From a virus, in the IMG/VR virus record IMGVR_UViG_3300027906_000164, positions 1 to 22,867 of that record: a DNA stretch of 22,867 bases. One strand, written 5' to 3'. The stretch's first letter is position 1. Each line of letters opens with the position of its first letter. This document shows positions 4,864 through 19,170 of the stretch, piece by piece. The translations under genes and the position numbers were made by a program. The notes under the pieces are model-generated. The model was given only the letters and a program-made list of their open reading frames with translations, was not told the DNA's origin and searched no databases.

Positions 4864-5661
4864 ATGACAAGTATTATTGACCCAAAGGAATTTACAGACG
4901 TGGTGACCGAATTGAGGTCATTTTTTTTGTCTAAAAATTTCTATGAGGTGCACACCCAAAATCGTTTGAGTATCCTTGCTGCTTGTGAAGATCCAGAGAC
5001 AGTAGCAACCTACAATTATGCCGATAACATTTGGCCCCTACCTCAGACAGGTCAGATGTGGTTAGAATATGAATTGTTAAACAACCCCAAAGCAGAGGGG
5101 TTTTTCTGTGTCTCAACGTCGTATAGGGCAGAGCCTAACCCAGTCCCAGGTAGACATGAAACCATCTTCCCTATGTTTGAGTTTGAAATGAAGGGAGGTG
5201 TTAAAGAACTTCAAGACATGGAGTGGGAACTATGTGAATGGTTAGGTATACCATTAAGTAAATCAGACATCATGACCTATGATGACTGGACTAATAAGTT
5301 TAATGCTAAAGAGTTAGACCATGACCATGAGAAAAAGATTGGTCGTGGTATGATTACTGACTTCCCTGAGTGGACATCACCTTTCTGGAACATGGCACGT
5401 AACGATGACGGCACCAGTAAGAAGATTGATGTGATCTTAGGTGGTCAGGAAACTATCGGTAGTGCTGAACGTAGTACAGATAAGGATCAGATGAGAGATA
5501 CATTCTATACCATCTCTGATGGACAGTATGCTCAACTCATCATTGATCTGTTTGGTAAGGAAAGAGTAGAGAAAGAACTAGAAGACTTCCTCTCATTTGA
5601 TTTCTTCCCTAGAAGTGGGGGTGGAATCGGTATTACTCGTCTCATATCAGCCCTTAAATAG
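4864..5661 (+). CDS. Class IIb aminoacyl-tRNA-synthetase-like catalytic domain (Asn/Asp type)
   Basis: A 265-residue protein with the three class II motifs. Motif 1-like FFLSKNFYEVHTQ lies at 20-32; LPQTGQMWLEYELL (59-72) parallels the class IIb 'QSPQ' segment; motif 2 YRAEPNPVPGRHETIFPMFE (88-107) has the ATP-binding arginine, the RHE loop and a final acidic residue; motif 3 GGGIGITRL (252-260) has its arginine. DVILGGQETIGSAERS (189-204) fits the amino-acid pocket of AspRS/AsnRS. The N-terminal OB-fold anticodon-binding domain (about 100 residues or more) is absent, as in asparagine synthetase AsnA, archaeal AsnRS-like asparagine synthetase and EpmA. It could make asparagine, aminoacylate something other than a normal tRNA, or act on the unusual tRNA that begins 8 bp after its stop. 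The fold call is strong, the reaction open. Confidence 0.8.
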   Translation: MTSIIDPKEFTDVVTELRSFFLSKNFYEVHTQNRLSILAACEDPETVATYNYADNIWPLPQTGQMWLEYELLNNPKAEGFFCVSTSYRAEPNPVPGRHETIFPMFEFEMKGGVKELQDMEWELCEWLGIPLSKSDIMTYDDWTNKFNAKELDHDHEKKIGRGMITDFPEWTSPFWNMARNDDGTSKKIDVILGGQETIGSAERSTDKDQMRDTFYTISDGQYAQLIIDLFGKERVEKELEDFLSFDFFPRSGGGIGITRLISALK

Positions 5662-5665
5662 GGCT
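5649..5665 (+). other. Hairpin across the synthetase stop codon with a TTAAATA loop
   Basis: AGCCC (5649-5653) pairs with GGGCT (5661-5665) around a seven-base loop TTAAATA. It covers the synthetase stop codon and ends five bases before the tRNA. There is no T run, so it is not a convincing terminator; it may guide tRNA 5' processing, or the loop sequence may simply be a late-type -10 core for the tRNA. Confidence 0.4.
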
Positions 5666-5669
5666 TCCT

Positions 5670-5755
5670 TGTGAGGTGACGAAACTGGTAAACGTGGTAG
5701 GTTGTTTCCCTACTGTTCCTGGCGGGACTTGATGGTTCGACTCCATCCCTCACAG
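5670..5755 (+). tRNA. tRNA with anticodon GUU (Asn), long variable arm (class II, Leu-like body)
   Basis: A complete 86-nt cloverleaf. Acceptor TGTGAGG/CCTCACA (7 perfect pairs), D stem ACG/CGT with loop AAACTGGTAAA (GG at 5687-5688), anticodon stem GTAGG/CCTAC with loop TTGTTTC and anticodon GTT at 5704-5706, a 17-nt variable arm with stem GTTCC/GGGAC and loop TGGC, T stem GATGG/CCATC with loop TTCGACT, and discriminator G73; CCA is not encoded. U1-A72 and G73 are as in bacterial tRNA-Asn, whereas the 3-bp D stem, large D loop and long variable arm are those of tRNA-Leu. Position 37 is U where a purine is nearly universal. It follows the synthetase-like gene by 8 bp and is probably co-transcribed. 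Confidence 0.85.
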
Positions 5756-5762
5756 TTAAATA
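5755..5762 (+). promoter_or_regulatory. Candidate late-type -10 element GTTAAATA
   Basis: GTTAAATA starts at the last base of the tRNA and ends 12 bp before the ATG at 5775. It matches TATAAATA at six of eight positions. A start about six bases downstream would leave a leader of only 7-8 nt, consistent with the absence of a ribosome-binding site before that ATG. Weak evidence by itself. Confidence 0.35.
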
Positions 5763-5774
5763 ACTATATAGTGC

Positions 5775-6665
5775 ATGGAAATACCCCACATCTCCACGCC
5801 AAATTCAGGCATACCTAATATCCAAGTTAATGGTACAGGTATTCCTTTGATACGTTCTAATTATGTGAGACAACCTAACATAAGACCTGTAAGGGGTGTC
5901 TACGTGGCCGACTTACGCAGTTGGATGACAAGTCCACAGGTTACTACACCATTGTCACCACCAGTAGTGATATATGCAGGGACACCCATCGTTGATATGC
6001 CTGGTTGTGTTGCTATACACAAAGAGAATTTAAAGAACAGATCACGCAATAAGATGCTGGTCAATGATGACCCTAAAGGTAACGTGGTCTTATGTGATGC
6101 AGGTATGCCATACTATGAACCACCTAACTATGATGCTAGAGAATTAACATGGCAGACCATCACACCTGATCAGGAAGAGCAGGAAGAGGGTCTTGATATA
6201 GCAGATCCAGAATTAAGTACAGATACACCTGAACCTCCTGATACATCACAACCTCCTGGTGAAATTGAATGTCCTCCACCTAATGCTAGACGCATAGGAG
6301 ATAGGAATCAGAAGGGTGATGAGCAAGTTAAAGAATATAAACTAACACCTGACGGTAAAATTTGTGAGACTATCTGGGAGCCTGTGCCAGCAGTGGAACA
6401 ATTCCTCCCATCAGCAGGTGTTGTAACAACTACTGCGACGATTGCGACTGTGGCGACAGCGAGTGCCCTATTTGCCAAACCCCTAGCAGATCTGCTGCTG
6501 AAGGCTGTGAAGCCTGTGATAAAGAAGGTGATGGACGCAGTGAAGAAGAAACTGGGGAAGGTTGAACGCCGTCCGAGTTTGTCTGAGATGAGGACTCAGA
6601 AGTACCGAGAGAAGAGGGGTCTACCTCCACTGAAGTCGAAGAAGAAGAAGGGTCAGTCCACTTAG
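5775..6665 (+). CDS. Proline-rich protein with a C-terminal membrane segment and basic tail; unknown
   Basis: A 296-residue protein of unknown function. The first 120 residues are rich in Pro, Ile and Asn with short repeats of the NSGIPNIQVNGTGIP kind; 130-175 is acidic and Pro-rich (PEPPDTSQPPGE); about 214-236 is a Thr/Ala hydrophobic segment (VVTTTATIATVATASALFAK); the end is strongly basic (KKKLGKVERR, LKSKKKKG). The pattern suggests a virion or membrane-associated protein with a DNA- or RNA-contacting tail, but no domain is recognised. The last 236 bp overlap, in the opposite direction, the end of the minus-strand gene at 6430. Codons in that stretch are strikingly G-ending compared with the rest of the gene. 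No ribosome-binding site is visible. Confidence 0.75.
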   Translation: MEIPHISTPNSGIPNIQVNGTGIPLIRSNYVRQPNIRPVRGVYVADLRSWMTSPQVTTPLSPPVVIYAGTPIVDMPGCVAIHKENLKNRSRNKMLVNDDPKGNVVLCDAGMPYYEPPNYDARELTWQTITPDQEEQEEGLDIADPELSTDTPEPPDTSQPPGEIECPPPNARRIGDRNQKGDEQVKEYKLTPDGKICETIWEPVPAVEQFLPSAGVVTTTATIATVATASALFAKPLADLLLKAVKPVIKKVMDAVKKKLGKVERRPSLSEMRTQKYREKRGLPPLKSKKKKGQST

Positions 6666-7446
6666 GTTTAGGTAACTGATGCTCATGAGGTACTAAAGTA
6701 CCACCTGGTGCTGTTACTACAACGTCAGCACAAACAGAATGATAAGGAGATGCTGGATGGAAAAATATACCTGCCTTCTTGAGCTCACCACAATTTTTGA
6801 GACGAGCTAATTCAAAGTCTAATCGTTTGTTAGATACTAACTGATTCTGCATTGATATCTGTGCTTGTGCTGCTTCATGGCACTGCCTAACTAACTTTCT
6901 GTTCAATGGTATAGACAGGGTAGCAGAGAGACCTGCATTGAATGACTGGTTGGCAGACATATCAGTCCTAACTGGTTTGTACCATGTAGGAGTCATCTTA
7001 CCACCACTATTAACTACGTCAGGCACACCGTCAGGACCATCTATATCCATTTCGATCTGCATATCCTCTCCATCAGGGAACCATCTAGTCCCATCTGCTT
7101 TAGTCCTTGTGTCATACCAGTCTGCCCAAGGATAGTTTTTAACAGTGACAGTCTGTTTAGTAGTCTTACCTGTAGTATCAGTCAAATTATATTGTGGTTC
7201 ATCATAAAAATCGACCCAAGGATCCTTCCGAGAGTCGGCAAATTGTATGTAAGGAGTCACGTTAAAGGTACTACCTTGACACTGGACACCACCACCATAG
7301 GTGTTGGTTATGTATGGACCTTGTAAAACTTGTATTGCCTGGTTGGTTACTGAGCCAGAACTATTGGCGATAGGGTTCGCTGTAGCACTAACACCACCAA
7401 CTTCTGCTCTTGCAGGTAAAGTTTGGACGCTGAGAAGTGCTGCTAT
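6430..7446 (-). CDS. Predicted exported protein with Ser/Pro-rich tail; start uncertain
   Basis: A minus-strand frame open well upstream of the given start. The recognisable protein begins with a signal-peptide-like segment (YVYPVIAALLSVQTLPARA, predicted cut after ARA, then EVGGV) whose first few codons lie within the end of the upstream gene. It continues with Trp/Tyr/Asp-rich repeats (KDPWVDFYD, YPWADWYD), a helical QCHEAAQAQISMQNQL segment, four Cys in the body and a Ser/Pro-rich tail. No ATG, GTG or TTG lies near the signal peptide; the nearest in-frame ATG is at 7755, inside the upstream gene. The coordinates use an ATA (7446-7444) that overlaps the upstream TAA; a -1 frameshift from the upstream frame is the alternative. 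The tail overlaps the + strand gene. Function unknown. Confidence 0.62.
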   Translation of the reverse strand: MAALLSVQTLPARAEVGGVSATANPIANSSGSVTNQAIQVLQGPYITNTYGGGVQCQGSTFNVTPYIQFADSRKDPWVDFYDEPQYNLTDTTGKTTKQTVTVKNYPWADWYDTRTKADGTRWFPDGEDMQIEMDIDGPDGVPDVVNSGGKMTPTWYKPVRTDMSANQSFNAGLSATLSIPLNRKLVRQCHEAAQAQISMQNQLVSNKRLDFELARLKNCGELKKAGIFFHPASPYHSVCADVVVTAPGGTLVPHEHQLPKPKWTDPSSSSTSVEVDPSSLGTSESSSQTNSDGVQPSPVSSSLRPSPSLSQASQPSAADLLGVWQIGHSLSPQSQSSQ

Positions 7447-7913
7447 TACTGGGTAAACGTACTTGTTGTGTCGGTCACGCTTTTTACGGTGGTGACTCTT
7501 TGTATCAGGGTCTGGTTGGTCATCCCTGGTCCTTGATAACTCTGTACGAATTGAAACGCATCCCCTGGAGTCGTTATCGTGAATTTCCCTGCGCTTCCAA
7601 AGTCTAAGTTGTCGAAGGAAGAGGTTACTTGTCCAGTTATGGCTCCTTCTCCCGATCCCACACTCGGTGCGACTGTTACTGTTGATGTATTCACGTTTGG
7701 ATTGAGTGCGTCTCCGTCGTGGGAGATCCCTACCCCTGACACTGTGTATTCCCATCCTGTTCTAAAATCAATTGAATTTATTGTTTCCGTTATCGTACTT
7801 TCAGTCTCCGTATGGCTGGTCATCGAACCCTGCTGGAAATTTGGTACCACGGGGACTGCTTGTGCAGCAGTTCCCCCGAAACTAAGCAGTAGTAGTACTA
7901 AAACTCGTTTCAT
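7446..7913 (-). CDS. Small predicted exported protein; function unknown
   Basis: A 155-residue protein with a classical signal peptide: MKRVLVLLLLSFGGTAAQA, with cleavage expected after AQA. The mature part is Thr/Ser/Val-rich (TETESTITETINSID, NPNVNTSTVTVAPSVGSGEG), as in beta-rich surface or fibre proteins, with no cysteine and no recognised domain. AGGAG overlapping the end of the upstream gene lies nine to ten bases before the ATG, so it is the middle gene of a minus-strand operon. Its TAA overlaps the putative start of the next protein. Codons are more C- and G-ending than in most of the window. Secretion by host Sec is expected; the role is unknown. Confidence 0.75.
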   Translation of the reverse strand: MKRVLVLLLLSFGGTAAQAVPVVPNFQQGSMTSHTETESTITETINSIDFRTGWEYTVSGVGISHDGDALNPNVNTSTVTVAPSVGSGEGAITGQVTSSFDNLDFGSAGKFTITTPGDAFQFVQSYQGPGMTNQTLIQRVTTVKSVTDTTSTFTQ

Positions 7914-7925
7914 TATGTATCACTC

Positions 7926-8435
7926 CTAGCGTATGGTGACCTCGGTGACAAACTGTCCCGTAGCTGTAGTGCCAGCCCCACCAGCCGTTATCGCCATAGC
8001 ACCTGCTGAAGTTATGGTACCTGCCAAATTACCAACGGTACCAGGGGCAGTCGATACTGTGTTGGAGTAACCATTTACATCACCTACATCAGCAGCAGTA
8101 GTGACTATACTGTCACCTAACGACACTGATTGTGTAAAGGAGTATGCATTTCCTTGAGTTGTCTGTGCTGCATCAGGTAGAGCAAAAGTTGCTGCACCAG
8201 AAGTTGCCACAGATTGAATGCCACCTAGATCACTAGCTGCACTACCACCTGACGGTGTAATAGTTGTAGAGACACCAGATCCACTAGTGCTATATGTATT
8301 TGCTGCTCTAGAAACTGAAGTATAACCCGCATCTACCGAAAGCTGTGTCGAGCTACTAAGTCTATGAGTCAGATCGGCACGTGCTGCTGTGCCACTCATC
8401 AAAATCATTCCAAAAAGCAGTATCGCTTTTTTCAT
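7926..8435 (-). CDS. Predicted exported Ser/Thr/Ala/Gly-rich protein; function unknown
   Basis: A 169-residue protein starting with a signal peptide (MKKAILLFGMILMSGTAARA, likely cut after ARA) followed by DLTHRLSSSTQLSVDAGYTS and a low-complexity Ser/Thr/Ala/Gly beta-rich region without cysteine. The composition is like extracellular fibre or adhesin proteins, but no repeat unit or domain is certain. AGGAT about six bases ahead of the ATG serves as ribosome-binding site, with a 14-bp palindrome and a TAAATA element farther upstream. It is the first gene of the minus-strand cluster, transcribed away from hsp20. Phage proteins with Sec signals are uncommon, and three in a row stand out. Confidence 0.75.
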   Translation of the reverse strand: MKKAILLFGMILMSGTAARADLTHRLSSSTQLSVDAGYTSVSRAANTYSTSGSGVSTTITPSGGSAASDLGGIQSVATSGAATFALPDAAQTTQGNAYSFTQSVSLGDSIVTTAADVGDVNGYSNTVSTAPGTVGNLAGTITSAGAMAITAGGAGTTATGQFVTEVTIR

Positions 8436-16123: not shown

Positions 16124-16305
16124 TGGCAGAAGCATATACTAACGGATCTTTATCTGTTGTAGTACCAATGGATGATTTCAAACTCATCCTCAGACAGATG
16201 TGGAAGTCACGGTCTACAGAACCTAAGATGGGTGAGTTGTATAAGAAGTATAAAACACTGACAACATTTGAAGACACTGCTGATGATTCCCCGTGTGACA
16301 TATGA
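16123..16305 (+). CDS. Small protein between mazG and purM; function unknown
   Basis: A 60-residue protein, starting MAEAYTNGSLSVVVPMDDFK, containing one predicted helix (DDFKLILRQMWKSR) and an acidic end. It has no recognisable domain. Its reality is supported by exact packing: the ATG overlaps the mazG stop (TAATG) and its own TGA overlaps the purM ATG (ATGA). It is likely translationally coupled with both and may serve nucleotide metabolism, which cannot be inferred from its sequence. Confidence 0.6.
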   Translation: MAEAYTNGSLSVVVPMDDFKLILRQMWKSRSTEPKMGELYKKYKTLTTFEDTADDSPCDI

Positions 16306-17228
16306 GATACCCCGTAGACATTGATAAAGGAAATGAGTTTGCAAAATCCATTAAGGCTCCTGGTCTTGGTGGATTTTCTGGTATGTTTCCATTGGATACA
16401 TTTGACTATGACGAACCAATACTAGTAGCAGGTGCTGATGGAGTAGGTACTAAATTAAATGTAGCAAGGGTTGCTAATGACTATACTACTATTGGTATAG
16501 ATCTAGTTGCTATGTGTGTCAACGATGTGATCACCTCTGGTGCTACACCATTATACTTCCTAGATTATATCTCTACCAAGAAGATAGATGACAACGTTGC
16601 TGACATCATGGTTGGTATCCTTAAGGGATGTGAGATAGCAGGTGTCCAGTTGTTAGGTGGAGAGACAGCAGAGCATTTCAGACAGTCAGAGTATGACCTA
16701 GCAGGATTCTGCACAGGTATAGTAGACAAATATAATGTTGTCGATGGTAGTGGTATAATGAAGGGTGATAAGATTGTTGGTGTAGCAAGTAGTGGACTGC
16801 ATAGCAATGGGTTTAGTCTTATCAATGATATGTTATGGAGACATGAGTTAGTTTATAAAGAGCACCCAGAGATACTTACTCCTACTACAATCTATACTGC
16901 ATCTGTATCAAGAGTAATGGAAGATGTATATGTCTCAGGTATGGCACACATCACAGGTGGTGGATTGCAGGAGAATATTAATAGAATTATACCAAGGAGT
17001 CTTCATGCTCAGATCGACTGGACATCATGGGAGAGACCTGAGATATTCAATGTCATACAAAGAGGTGCAGCAACCAACCCTCTAACTGAGGACATAACTG
17101 AGGAAGAGTTGAGAAGAGTATTCAATTGTGGTATAGGATACTGCTTTGTAACTCCATACCCTGCTGAGGCTATGAAAATGATTGTTGAGGATTGTTACAT
17201 TATTGGAGAGGTGGTTGACAACTCTTGA
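16302..17228 (+). CDS. purM: Phosphoribosylformylglycinamidine cyclo-ligase PurM
   Basis: A 308-residue AIR synthetase, the fifth step of purine synthesis (FGAM plus ATP to AIR). VDIDKGNEF, GGFSGMFPL, ADGVGTKLN (45-53), GIDLVAMCVNDVITSG (65-80), GGETAEHF, AGFCTGIVDK, GVASSGLHSNGFSL, HITGGGLQENI and RRVFNCGIGYCF follow bacterial PurM along its whole length. E. coli PurM has 345 residues; the missing parts are mainly at the N terminus and in the HGEDYD loop. It is a cyanophage auxiliary gene thought to raise purine supply for DNA synthesis. The ATG overlaps the previous stop. The 3' end carries the -35 element (17215-17220) of the downstream RNA gene. Confidence 0.97.
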   Translation: MRYPVDIDKGNEFAKSIKAPGLGGFSGMFPLDTFDYDEPILVAGADGVGTKLNVARVANDYTTIGIDLVAMCVNDVITSGATPLYFLDYISTKKIDDNVADIMVGILKGCEIAGVQLLGGETAEHFRQSEYDLAGFCTGIVDKYNVVDGSGIMKGDKIVGVASSGLHSNGFSLINDMLWRHELVYKEHPEILTPTTIYTASVSRVMEDVYVSGMAHITGGGLQENINRIIPRSLHAQIDWTSWERPEIFNVIQRGAATNPLTEDITEEELRRVFNCGIGYCFVTPYPAEAMKMIVEDCYIIGEVVDNS

Positions 17229-17243
17229 CGATGGTAGTATATT
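17215..17243 (+). promoter_or_regulatory. Near-consensus sigma70 promoter of the putative RNA gene
   Basis: TTGACA at 17215-17220 is a perfect -35 box and TATATT at 17238-17243 a five-of-six -10 box, separated by exactly 17 bp. The predicted start is near 17250. The -35 lies within the last codons of purM. No downstream protein start follows for over 200 bp, so the promoter serves an untranslated transcript. Confidence 0.75.
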
Positions 17244-17446
17244 ACATTTGTTGAGAGCTCAACAAGGGAGTGACTGAATAAACTTACTGGCATATAGCTG
17301 GTTAAGGTGATGAGGCAGAGGTGGTGCTCGCTGGTTAATACCAGAACCCTTACCAAGGGGTCTCAGGCAGAGATGTTTTTACTACTGTAGTAATGCCCGT
17401 CTCTTGTTGGTACACAGGAACCCAACCTCCCACACCAACACAAAGG

Positions 17447-17454
17447 AATAAATA
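17447..17454 (+). promoter_or_regulatory. Late-type promoter AATAAATA for the gene at 17479
   Basis: AATAAATA matches TATAAATA at seven of eight positions and lies 24 bp before the ATG at 17479. Transcription would begin near 17460, inside the 5' arm of the terminator hairpin, so late transcripts would not carry the complete terminator. Confidence 0.55.
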
Positions 17455-17477
17455 GAGGGTAGAGATACCCTCTTTTT
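17454..17477 (+). terminator. Intrinsic terminator with GAGA tetraloop
   Basis: AGAGGGTA (17454-17461) pairs perfectly with TACCCTCT (17466-17473) around the GNRA loop GAGA, followed by TTTT. It ends the purM/ncRNA transcription and lies one base before the next ATG. Confidence 0.88.
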
Positions 17478-17478
17478 A

Positions 17479-19170
17479 ATGGACCTCAATCAAACGATAG
17501 CAAATAATATTGATAAGATATTCAAGGATAACCTAGAGTTGTCTAACATGTACTCTGGTATCTCTGTTGTTGGTGCTGGTAAGGAGATCAACCCCTTTGA
17601 TACTAGTAATGTAGGTGCTAACACATCAAATGATATTGCTGTTAAGGGTAAGAAGGAAGTTATACTCTTTCCAAAGATCAAGAATAAGAATGAAAGAGAT
17701 TGGTTAGTCCAAAAGGTTGCTGCACATGTTGACAGTCATCTGGATGACCTGAAAGAAAATATAATGCCCTTCTATGATGAAGAGCTACAGGCATGTTGGA
17801 CTACTTCTATAAAGAAACATGCTGCTAGTAGTGCTCAGTCTTATGTTGTAGAGGCAGCAGTTAAGAAGGGATTTGATCTTAGAATAGTATTCTCTGCTAA
17901 GGGATTAACATCAGGTGGTAAGTTACCTGATCCTCATGAGTTGATGACCGCATGTCTTATATTAAAGAAGCAAAAGATTAATCCTAATGCTATCAATGCT
18001 CTGGCTCCTGACAAGAAACTAGAGAAGATAAAGGAGATAGTTGATGGGTTATATAATGTAGCAGGTGACATAGTAGGTGGATCAGGACTACCTGGTTTCT
18101 ACTTAGAGAAGGAGAGAATCAACCCAGACATAGTTAACCTAGCTAAAGCTATATCAGTATCTAATACCATAATAGATAAGTTAAATGGTGCAACTATACA
18201 TACTATCTGGCAGACTGGTAAGCAATGGGCACAAGAGATTAGAAAGTATGATATAGGAAAGGATGATATCAAACACTATAACTCATCTGATATTGTTATT
18301 AAGTTTGAAACCACAGCGATGCACTACTGGGGTATATCATTAAAGAAAGCGAAGTGGAATCCATCTGGACAGGCAGACGAACCAACTCTACTAAACAAAC
18401 CCATGTATGGTGCAAAGGGTTTCATTGAGAAGAGGATAAAACCAGCAGATGCTATGCAGGTTGAGGCTTGTAAGAAGAAATTCTTCGTAGGAGCACTGAA
18501 GTTAAAGTATCCTCAAGGTGAGTATAAGAAAAAGAAGATCACCACGATGAATATCAAAGAAGTTCTTAAAGCAGCTGATGCATCCTTCGTTGATAAAGAT
18601 AAGGGAGACATGCTGACTGGTCAGGGTGAGTATAAGACCAACCCTAATGTATACTTCAAGAAAATGAATGATGTATTCATTAAAAACTTTGATGGTAATA
18701 GAGATTTCTTTGAGGACTTCTTAGATACTGTGTTTAAGTTTAAGATGGGTACCTATCTTAAGGATGCTGTGTTTCATTTCACACTGATAACTGGTGTTGG
18801 TGACTGGAAGAATGGTGATATTAAGGTGCAAGAGATGACTGAGATCTGGCACAAGACTACCACTGAGGTCTTTAGAATCTTGTTTGGTGATGAGGATAAC
18901 ACTACCTTCAGACTGGTACCAGGTTTTGATAAGAATGGGAAACCTAAGAAGCAAGCATTTGAAAAGGATGCTACGGCAGCTAAATTATTCTATGACATGA
19001 GGATAGGTAAACCTGGTATTGAACATACTCTGGTTAACCTAGAGGTAAGATATAAGGGTGCACTGACTGCTGAGCCACAGTTTCAGGTCTTTATATCAAT
19101 GGCACAGAATGGATTCAAGTCCCTGTATAAAAAGACAGCTGCTAAACTGACCACTCAACCTAGATGGTAG
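17479..19170 (+). CDS. Large protein of unknown function (563 residues)
   Basis: A 563-residue soluble-looking protein. No family is recognised. It is rich in Lys and Asp, has no signal peptide or clear membrane span, and contains several conserved-looking blocks, for example DIVIKFETTAMHYWGISLKK (near 275), VFHFTLITGVGDWKNGDIKV (near 430) and KPGIEHTLVNLEVRYKGALT (near 520). The clustered acidic and aromatic residues in the second block could be catalytic. Its neighbours downstream are a ligase-like and a HIGH-type nucleotidyltransferase, so a nucleic-acid processing role is possible. There is no ribosome-binding site: the ATG follows the terminator T run directly, and the late-type promoter at 17447 would yield a leader of about 20 nt. 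Confidence 0.75.
   Translation: MDLNQTIANNIDKIFKDNLELSNMYSGISVVGAGKEINPFDTSNVGANTSNDIAVKGKKEVILFPKIKNKNERDWLVQKVAAHVDSHLDDLKENIMPFYDEELQACWTTSIKKHAASSAQSYVVEAAVKKGFDLRIVFSAKGLTSGGKLPDPHELMTACLILKKQKINPNAINALAPDKKLEKIKEIVDGLYNVAGDIVGGSGLPGFYLEKERINPDIVNLAKAISVSNTIIDKLNGATIHTIWQTGKQWAQEIRKYDIGKDDIKHYNSSDIVIKFETTAMHYWGISLKKAKWNPSGQADEPTLLNKPMYGAKGFIEKRIKPADAMQVEACKKKFFVGALKLKYPQGEYKKKKITTMNIKEVLKAADASFVDKDKGDMLTGQGEYKTNPNVYFKKMNDVFIKNFDGNRDFFEDFLDTVFKFKMGTYLKDAVFHFTLITGVGDWKNGDIKVQEMTEIWHKTTTEVFRILFGDEDNTTFRLVPGFDKNGKPKKQAFEKDATAAKLFYDMRIGKPGIEHTLVNLEVRYKGALTAEPQFQVFISMAQNGFKSLYKKTAAKLTTQPRW

Follow-up and report, generated by a model that had tools for sequence, protein, structure and literature searches.

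The manA RNA family (RF01745) is filed by Rfam under the type Cis-reg and is listed by Weinberg et al. (2010) as a likely riboswitch candidate (PMC2864571). In that work, manA RNAs are found upstream of sugar, nucleotide, ibpA, and photosynthesis genes (PMC2864571). Neither experimental work on manA nor a ligand was found in the open-access literature, a search that most subscription papers fall outside. The subject of this analysis is a manA RNA on the plus strand of a 22,867-nucleotide (nt) stretch of viral DNA (IMG/VR record IMGVR_UViG_3300027906_000164, positions 1 to 22,867), here called the window. The best reading of this RNA and its relatives is that manA is probably a trans-acting RNA gene of T4-like cyanophages and not a riboswitch.

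Other phage RNAs offer partial likenesses. The put RNA of phage HK022 is a multi-helix RNA that is found at the transcript start, is present twice per genome at fixed operons, and acts on its own polymerase. manA is likewise a multi-helix RNA, predicted to lie at the start of phage transcripts, but it has one copy per genome at changing sites. GOLLD and ROOL RNAs are linked to phages. They resemble manA as structured noncoding RNAs with unsolved roles but are much larger (PMC12286853). CfrI of S-PM2 is a noncoding RNA of about 225 nt from a cyanomyovirus (PMC2984593); CfrI is antisense to psbA, whereas the window manA is antisense to no gene in the window. The closest system is manA as filed, which the window RNA matches in sequence and structure over the full length and in its T4-like cyanophage habitat (PMC2864571). 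Set against the filed description are an own promoter, a single copy, changing sites, a terminator and late-promoter motif before the next gene, and a 3' hairpin extension that is present in about a fifth of members and absent from this window.

The identity of the window RNA is near certain. RF01745 was the sole match in a covariance scan of the window, scoring 175.7 bits against a gathering cut-off of 55.2 (E 1e-47) and covering model positions 1-192 of 192, while all other Rfam families gave chance-level matches only. manA is thus a family already known, with its role unsolved, and the window copy is a full-length member. The original prediction, made from the letters of the window, had described a discrete RNA with its own promoter and terminator; it recognized no family, though manA was on its list to check, and the covariance check that it proposed supplied the name. 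The observation itself is confirmed as real and more than chance. The T4-like phage genes in the window encode DNA polymerase, UvsX, a DnaB-like helicase, RegA, Hsp20, MazG, and PurM, and the relatives of the RNA fall in Kyanoviridae, as expected for RF01745. The features of the locus, all on the plus strand, are as follows.

17249-17436: manA RNA, model positions 1-192 (RF01745, 175.7 bits), with a start at about 17249-17251 predicted from the -10 box
17249-17264: 5'-terminal hairpin of 6 base pairs (bp), 17249-17254 with 17259-17264 (RF01745 consensus structure)
17266-17431: outer closing helix GGGAG/CTCCC, 17266-17270 with 17427-17431, enclosing the multi-branched core; 100% paired in 48 relatives, double changes in two pairs
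17311-17365: inner multi-branch helix (helix 6), 17311-17316 with 17360-17365; 99% paired, double changes in 5/6 pairs
17318-17329, 17331-17344, and 17347-17359: three hairpins inside the inner multi-branch helix
17369-17404: long hairpin (helix 11), 17369-17375 with 17398-17404, inner stem 17379-17393; 97.6% paired, double changes in 7/7 pairs
17406-17426: 3' hairpin adjoining the long hairpin, 17406-17410 with 17422-17426; 100% paired, double changes in two pairs
17215-17220: -35 hexamer TTGACA, kept in purM-manA relatives
17238-17243: -10 hexamer TATATT after a 17-nt spacer, kept in relatives
17448-17454: late-promoter motif ATAAATA of the NATAAATA type (consensus from PMC2984593), probably serving the next gene
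17454-17477: intrinsic terminator of 8 bp (pairs in 17454-17473) with a GAGA (GNRA) loop and TTTT at 17474-17477, common to purM and manA
16302-17228: purM (phosphoribosylaminoimidazole synthetase), the upstream neighbor (PHROG 1207, E 2e-131; Pfam AIRS and AIRS_C)
17479-19170: 563-amino-acid protein of the unknown-function family phrog_3060, the downstream neighbor (E 6e-171; no Pfam family)

The folded structure is supported by 48 diverse manA relatives, the window copy included. Both partners have changed in 29 of the 52 consensus pairs, and double-change cells number 190, against 57.9 +/- 7.4 in shuffles. Pairing is found in 88.8% of cells and falls to 38-49% when the partners are slid by 1-3 columns. 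The structural case rests on this covariation because the folding energy of the window RNA alone gives a z of only -2.0, which is modest evidence. The 190-nt core also holds dozens of invariant bases. All helices drawn in the original prediction belong to the RF01745 consensus structure; the covariation and conservation in relatives that it proposed to look for are both strong, contrary to the absence of covariation and of conservation that it would have taken as refutation.

No protein gene was found within manA, as had been thought from the window: a comparison of 105 relatives shows no conserved reading frame. Peptides from the single recurrent ATG vary in length, and whichever frame is read, it is open in few of the sequences. 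A box C/D or kink-turn mimic was also rejected; both the GUGAUGA and the CUGA word occur, but a covarying helix contains the UGA of GUGAUGA. As for the suggested mimic of a host RNA, no host RNA that manA would mimic was found.

The promoter of the window manA lies where it had been placed and matches the sigma-70 consensus at 11 of 12 bases, the best score on both strands over 2.6 kb. It had been described as lying inside the end of purM. This holds for the -35 box, but the -10 box is beyond the purM stop codon (17226-17228). At least 11 of 12 consensus bases occur at this fixed place in 76/97 non-redundant loci (78%); the corresponding rates are 0.8% in far windows and 0.05% in shuffles. In 80 of 84 relatives, helix 1 starts 4-6 nt past the -10 box, so that the base of the first hairpin would coincide with the start of the RNA. 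Relatives are given L numbers here; L117, one of the loci without such a promoter, sits just behind a transfer RNA (tRNA) gene. A terminator-like hairpin is immediately upstream of manA in 41/101 loci, and in its common form, GAGGG-TTGACA-CCCTC-TTTTTT, the -35 box doubles as the terminator loop. The compact overlap GAGGG-TTGACA-CCCTCTTTTTTT is observed upstream of manA in L009, L032, L084, L105, L281, and L283.

The T4 genes that redirect the host polymerase are missing from cyanomyoviruses, and S-PM2 and Syn9 have early genes with sigma-70 motifs (PMC2984593). On this basis, the proposal that host polymerase makes the RNA early probably stands. By sequence, the window manA has its own promoter and its own 3' end, which supports the predicted discrete RNA of about 228 nt with a host-type promoter and a terminator.

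The main alternative, and the one that survives best, is the reading of Rfam and Weinberg et al., in which manA is a cis-regulatory leader or riboswitch and a metabolite-binding RNA controls the gene after it. Its filing as Cis-reg and its 2010 candidacy (PMC2864571) speak for this reading, which is nevertheless unlikely. One point against it is that there is at most one manA per genome. Exactly one copy is present in each of the 13 complete isolate genomes that carry manA and in each of two phage contigs of 210 and 163 kb, and two copies in one record were never observed among the genomes and contigs tested. manA is absent from 12 other Kyanoviridae genomes, all Synechococcus-type phages. Most carriers infect Prochlorococcus, although this host link is a lead only, as the carriers were chosen for having a match.

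A second point is the lack of host-cell copies. Among 300 host-family genomes there was one match, and its contig also carries gp46, gp47, and further T4-like genes, so manA is, by its sequence matches, phage-only. A host riboswitch copied by phages was rejected on this count, with 299 of the 300 genomes empty and the exception a T4-like phage contig. An exact-word scan of genome contigs gave 75 matches, three of them true manA (two phage-like and the third too short to judge). wcaG was not found in the same phages by a search that had no positive control; a Glutamine-II search returned weak single matches and was uninformative as a control.

The neighbors of manA change. Among 13 isolates, it is found after gp23, after a ferredoxin gene near psbA, after pstS, between regA and purL, before talC, and before gp32. 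Across relatives there are 39 upstream and 30 downstream gene clusters, and the downstream family barely tracks the tree of the RNA (74 changes versus a shuffled mean of 79.9), which argues against control of the adjacent gene. Edge features of the RNA itself, in contrast, do track that tree (34 versus 49.8 and 41 versus 60.5 changes). In P-HM1, manA follows gp23; in P-HM2, which is listed under the same species name, it precedes gp32. The empty sites are reciprocal and were read base by base. The gp23 site of P-HM1 is a closed unit: a terminator with promoter, the RNA, a terminator, and then the CTAAATA late promoter of the next gene. The gp32 site has its promoter even when empty.

What follows manA was surveyed in 105 non-redundant loci. 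An intrinsic terminator lies within 110 nt downstream in 40, compared with 3.7% of random windows; at least five further loci run into a tRNA gene, which also tells against a riboswitch, and 14 show a late-promoter motif ahead of the next frame. The terminator forms together with manA in 38 of 40 minimum-free-energy folds, and no competing antiterminator was seen in these 40. A classic attenuator was rejected on this ground, and the folds are a further point against a riboswitch.

In P-HM1 and in the window, a terminator and a separate late promoter precede the next gene. The window terminator was correctly described (8 bp, GAGA loop), but it was not built for manA. L202, a relative without manA whose purM is 75% identical, has the same type of terminator directly after purM, and for this reason the window manA looks to have settled between purM and the old terminator of purM. 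The ATAAATA motif matches the cyanophage late-promoter consensus NATAAATA (PMC2984593) and is found at the same spot in purM-site relatives and in the empty site of L202. It stays with the next gene and is probably a separate late promoter for that gene. Because the motif abuts the terminator hairpin (17448-17477), late transcription would begin within the hairpin and avoid termination. Read-through from purM or manA would be stopped by that same terminator.

Several observations weigh against an independent RNA gene. First, in 46/105 loci no terminator, tRNA, or late-promoter motif separates manA from an open reading frame, as would suit a 5' leader, and this count speaks for the riboswitch. 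Second, two downstream families recur, one recognized as gp32 (19 loci), the other talC (13 loci), and these too fit a 5' leader. Third, manA at the gp32 site lies between the existing promoter of that gene and its start, as the promoter of the empty site reveals. Fourth, the manA tree is only partly resolved (28/99 nodes at >=0.9), which inflates the apparent shuffling; the neighbor result is therefore supporting evidence only. Finally, the manA-carrying genomes were selected because they matched. As for the cis-leader label, a terminator and late-promoter motif intervene in the window and the pattern across relatives speaks against it, yet many relatives are leaders.

Two further alternatives are much weaker. 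An antiterminator RNA would act on its own polymerase in the manner of put, so that the polymerase would ignore the terminators behind manA. The position of manA at the 5' end beside a promoter, the terminators that often directly follow it, and its restriction to phages are consistent with such a role. It is improbable in view of the single copy per genome in changing operons, the 65/105 loci without a terminator close behind, and the late-promoter motif that the next gene has for itself in both P-HM1 and the window. Least probable of all is a 5' cap structure that shields phage messenger RNAs (mRNAs) from RNase E without a specific target: a stable hairpin does begin at the predicted transcript start and manA does lead several mRNAs, but the 190-nt core with its invariant bases far exceeds the needs of a cap, one copy per genome is a poor fit, and a closed unit that ends in a terminator leaves nothing downstream in need of protection.

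Some manA RNAs have a further hairpin that lies outside the RF01745 model and matches no Rfam family. The hairpin GACCTAAGATGCAACT..GGGCAGATGGTC is directly 3' of manA in 91 of the 93 contigs newly fetched, with the remaining two truncated at the contig end, and in 23/105 non-redundant loci. It is known from about 118 viral contigs, with examples at L012:3494-3526 and L078:4151-4183. The stem covaries, its outer pair being G-C in 45/59 and A-T in 14/59, and the internal loop is conserved. About half of the copies end in a T run and half do not.

A tRNA-like gene of near-identical sequence (GCGGATGTCGTATAAAAG...) is found after manA or its 3' hairpin in L014, L086, L117, and L034 and is scored as a tRNA by Rfam in the first three. 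In L023 and L059, a glutamine-riboswitch-like sequence follows manA in tandem, as judged by eye only. Elsewhere in the window, 4864-5756 encodes a class II tRNA-synthetase-like protein (Pfam PF00152) with a tRNA-Asn gene directly after it, and L005 has a similar protein fragment and tRNA-Asn upstream of manA. Long open frames at 6430-8435 are on the minus strand, opposite to the rest of the window.

For the trans-acting RNA gene, the proposed course is that, early in infection, host RNA polymerase would transcribe about 228 nt between roughly 17250 and 17477. The folded RNA would then act in trans on a host or phage target and not on the adjacent gene. A protein is the guessed target, since conservation falls on structured, internal parts and not on a long free antisense segment. 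Where no terminator follows and gp32, talC, or a tRNA gene is next, a longer transcript would have manA as its 5' leader, and the RNA may act there or once cut out. In its full form, this account has manA as a phage-only, single-copy, trans-acting, early-expressed RNA, not a riboswitch, that is lost and regained at varied sites, either as a closed unit or at the +1 of an existing promoter, with an extra conserved 3' domain in a subset; the odds slightly favor this account as a whole.

In catalogs, the manA RNAs of marine phages have stood as likely riboswitch candidates since 2010. If they are trans-acting RNA genes, the search for a ligand would be the wrong experiment. P-HM1 and P-HM2 both infect the Prochlorococcus strain MED4 and are a ready pair for testing manA. 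The question would become which host or phage component manA binds during infection of Prochlorococcus.
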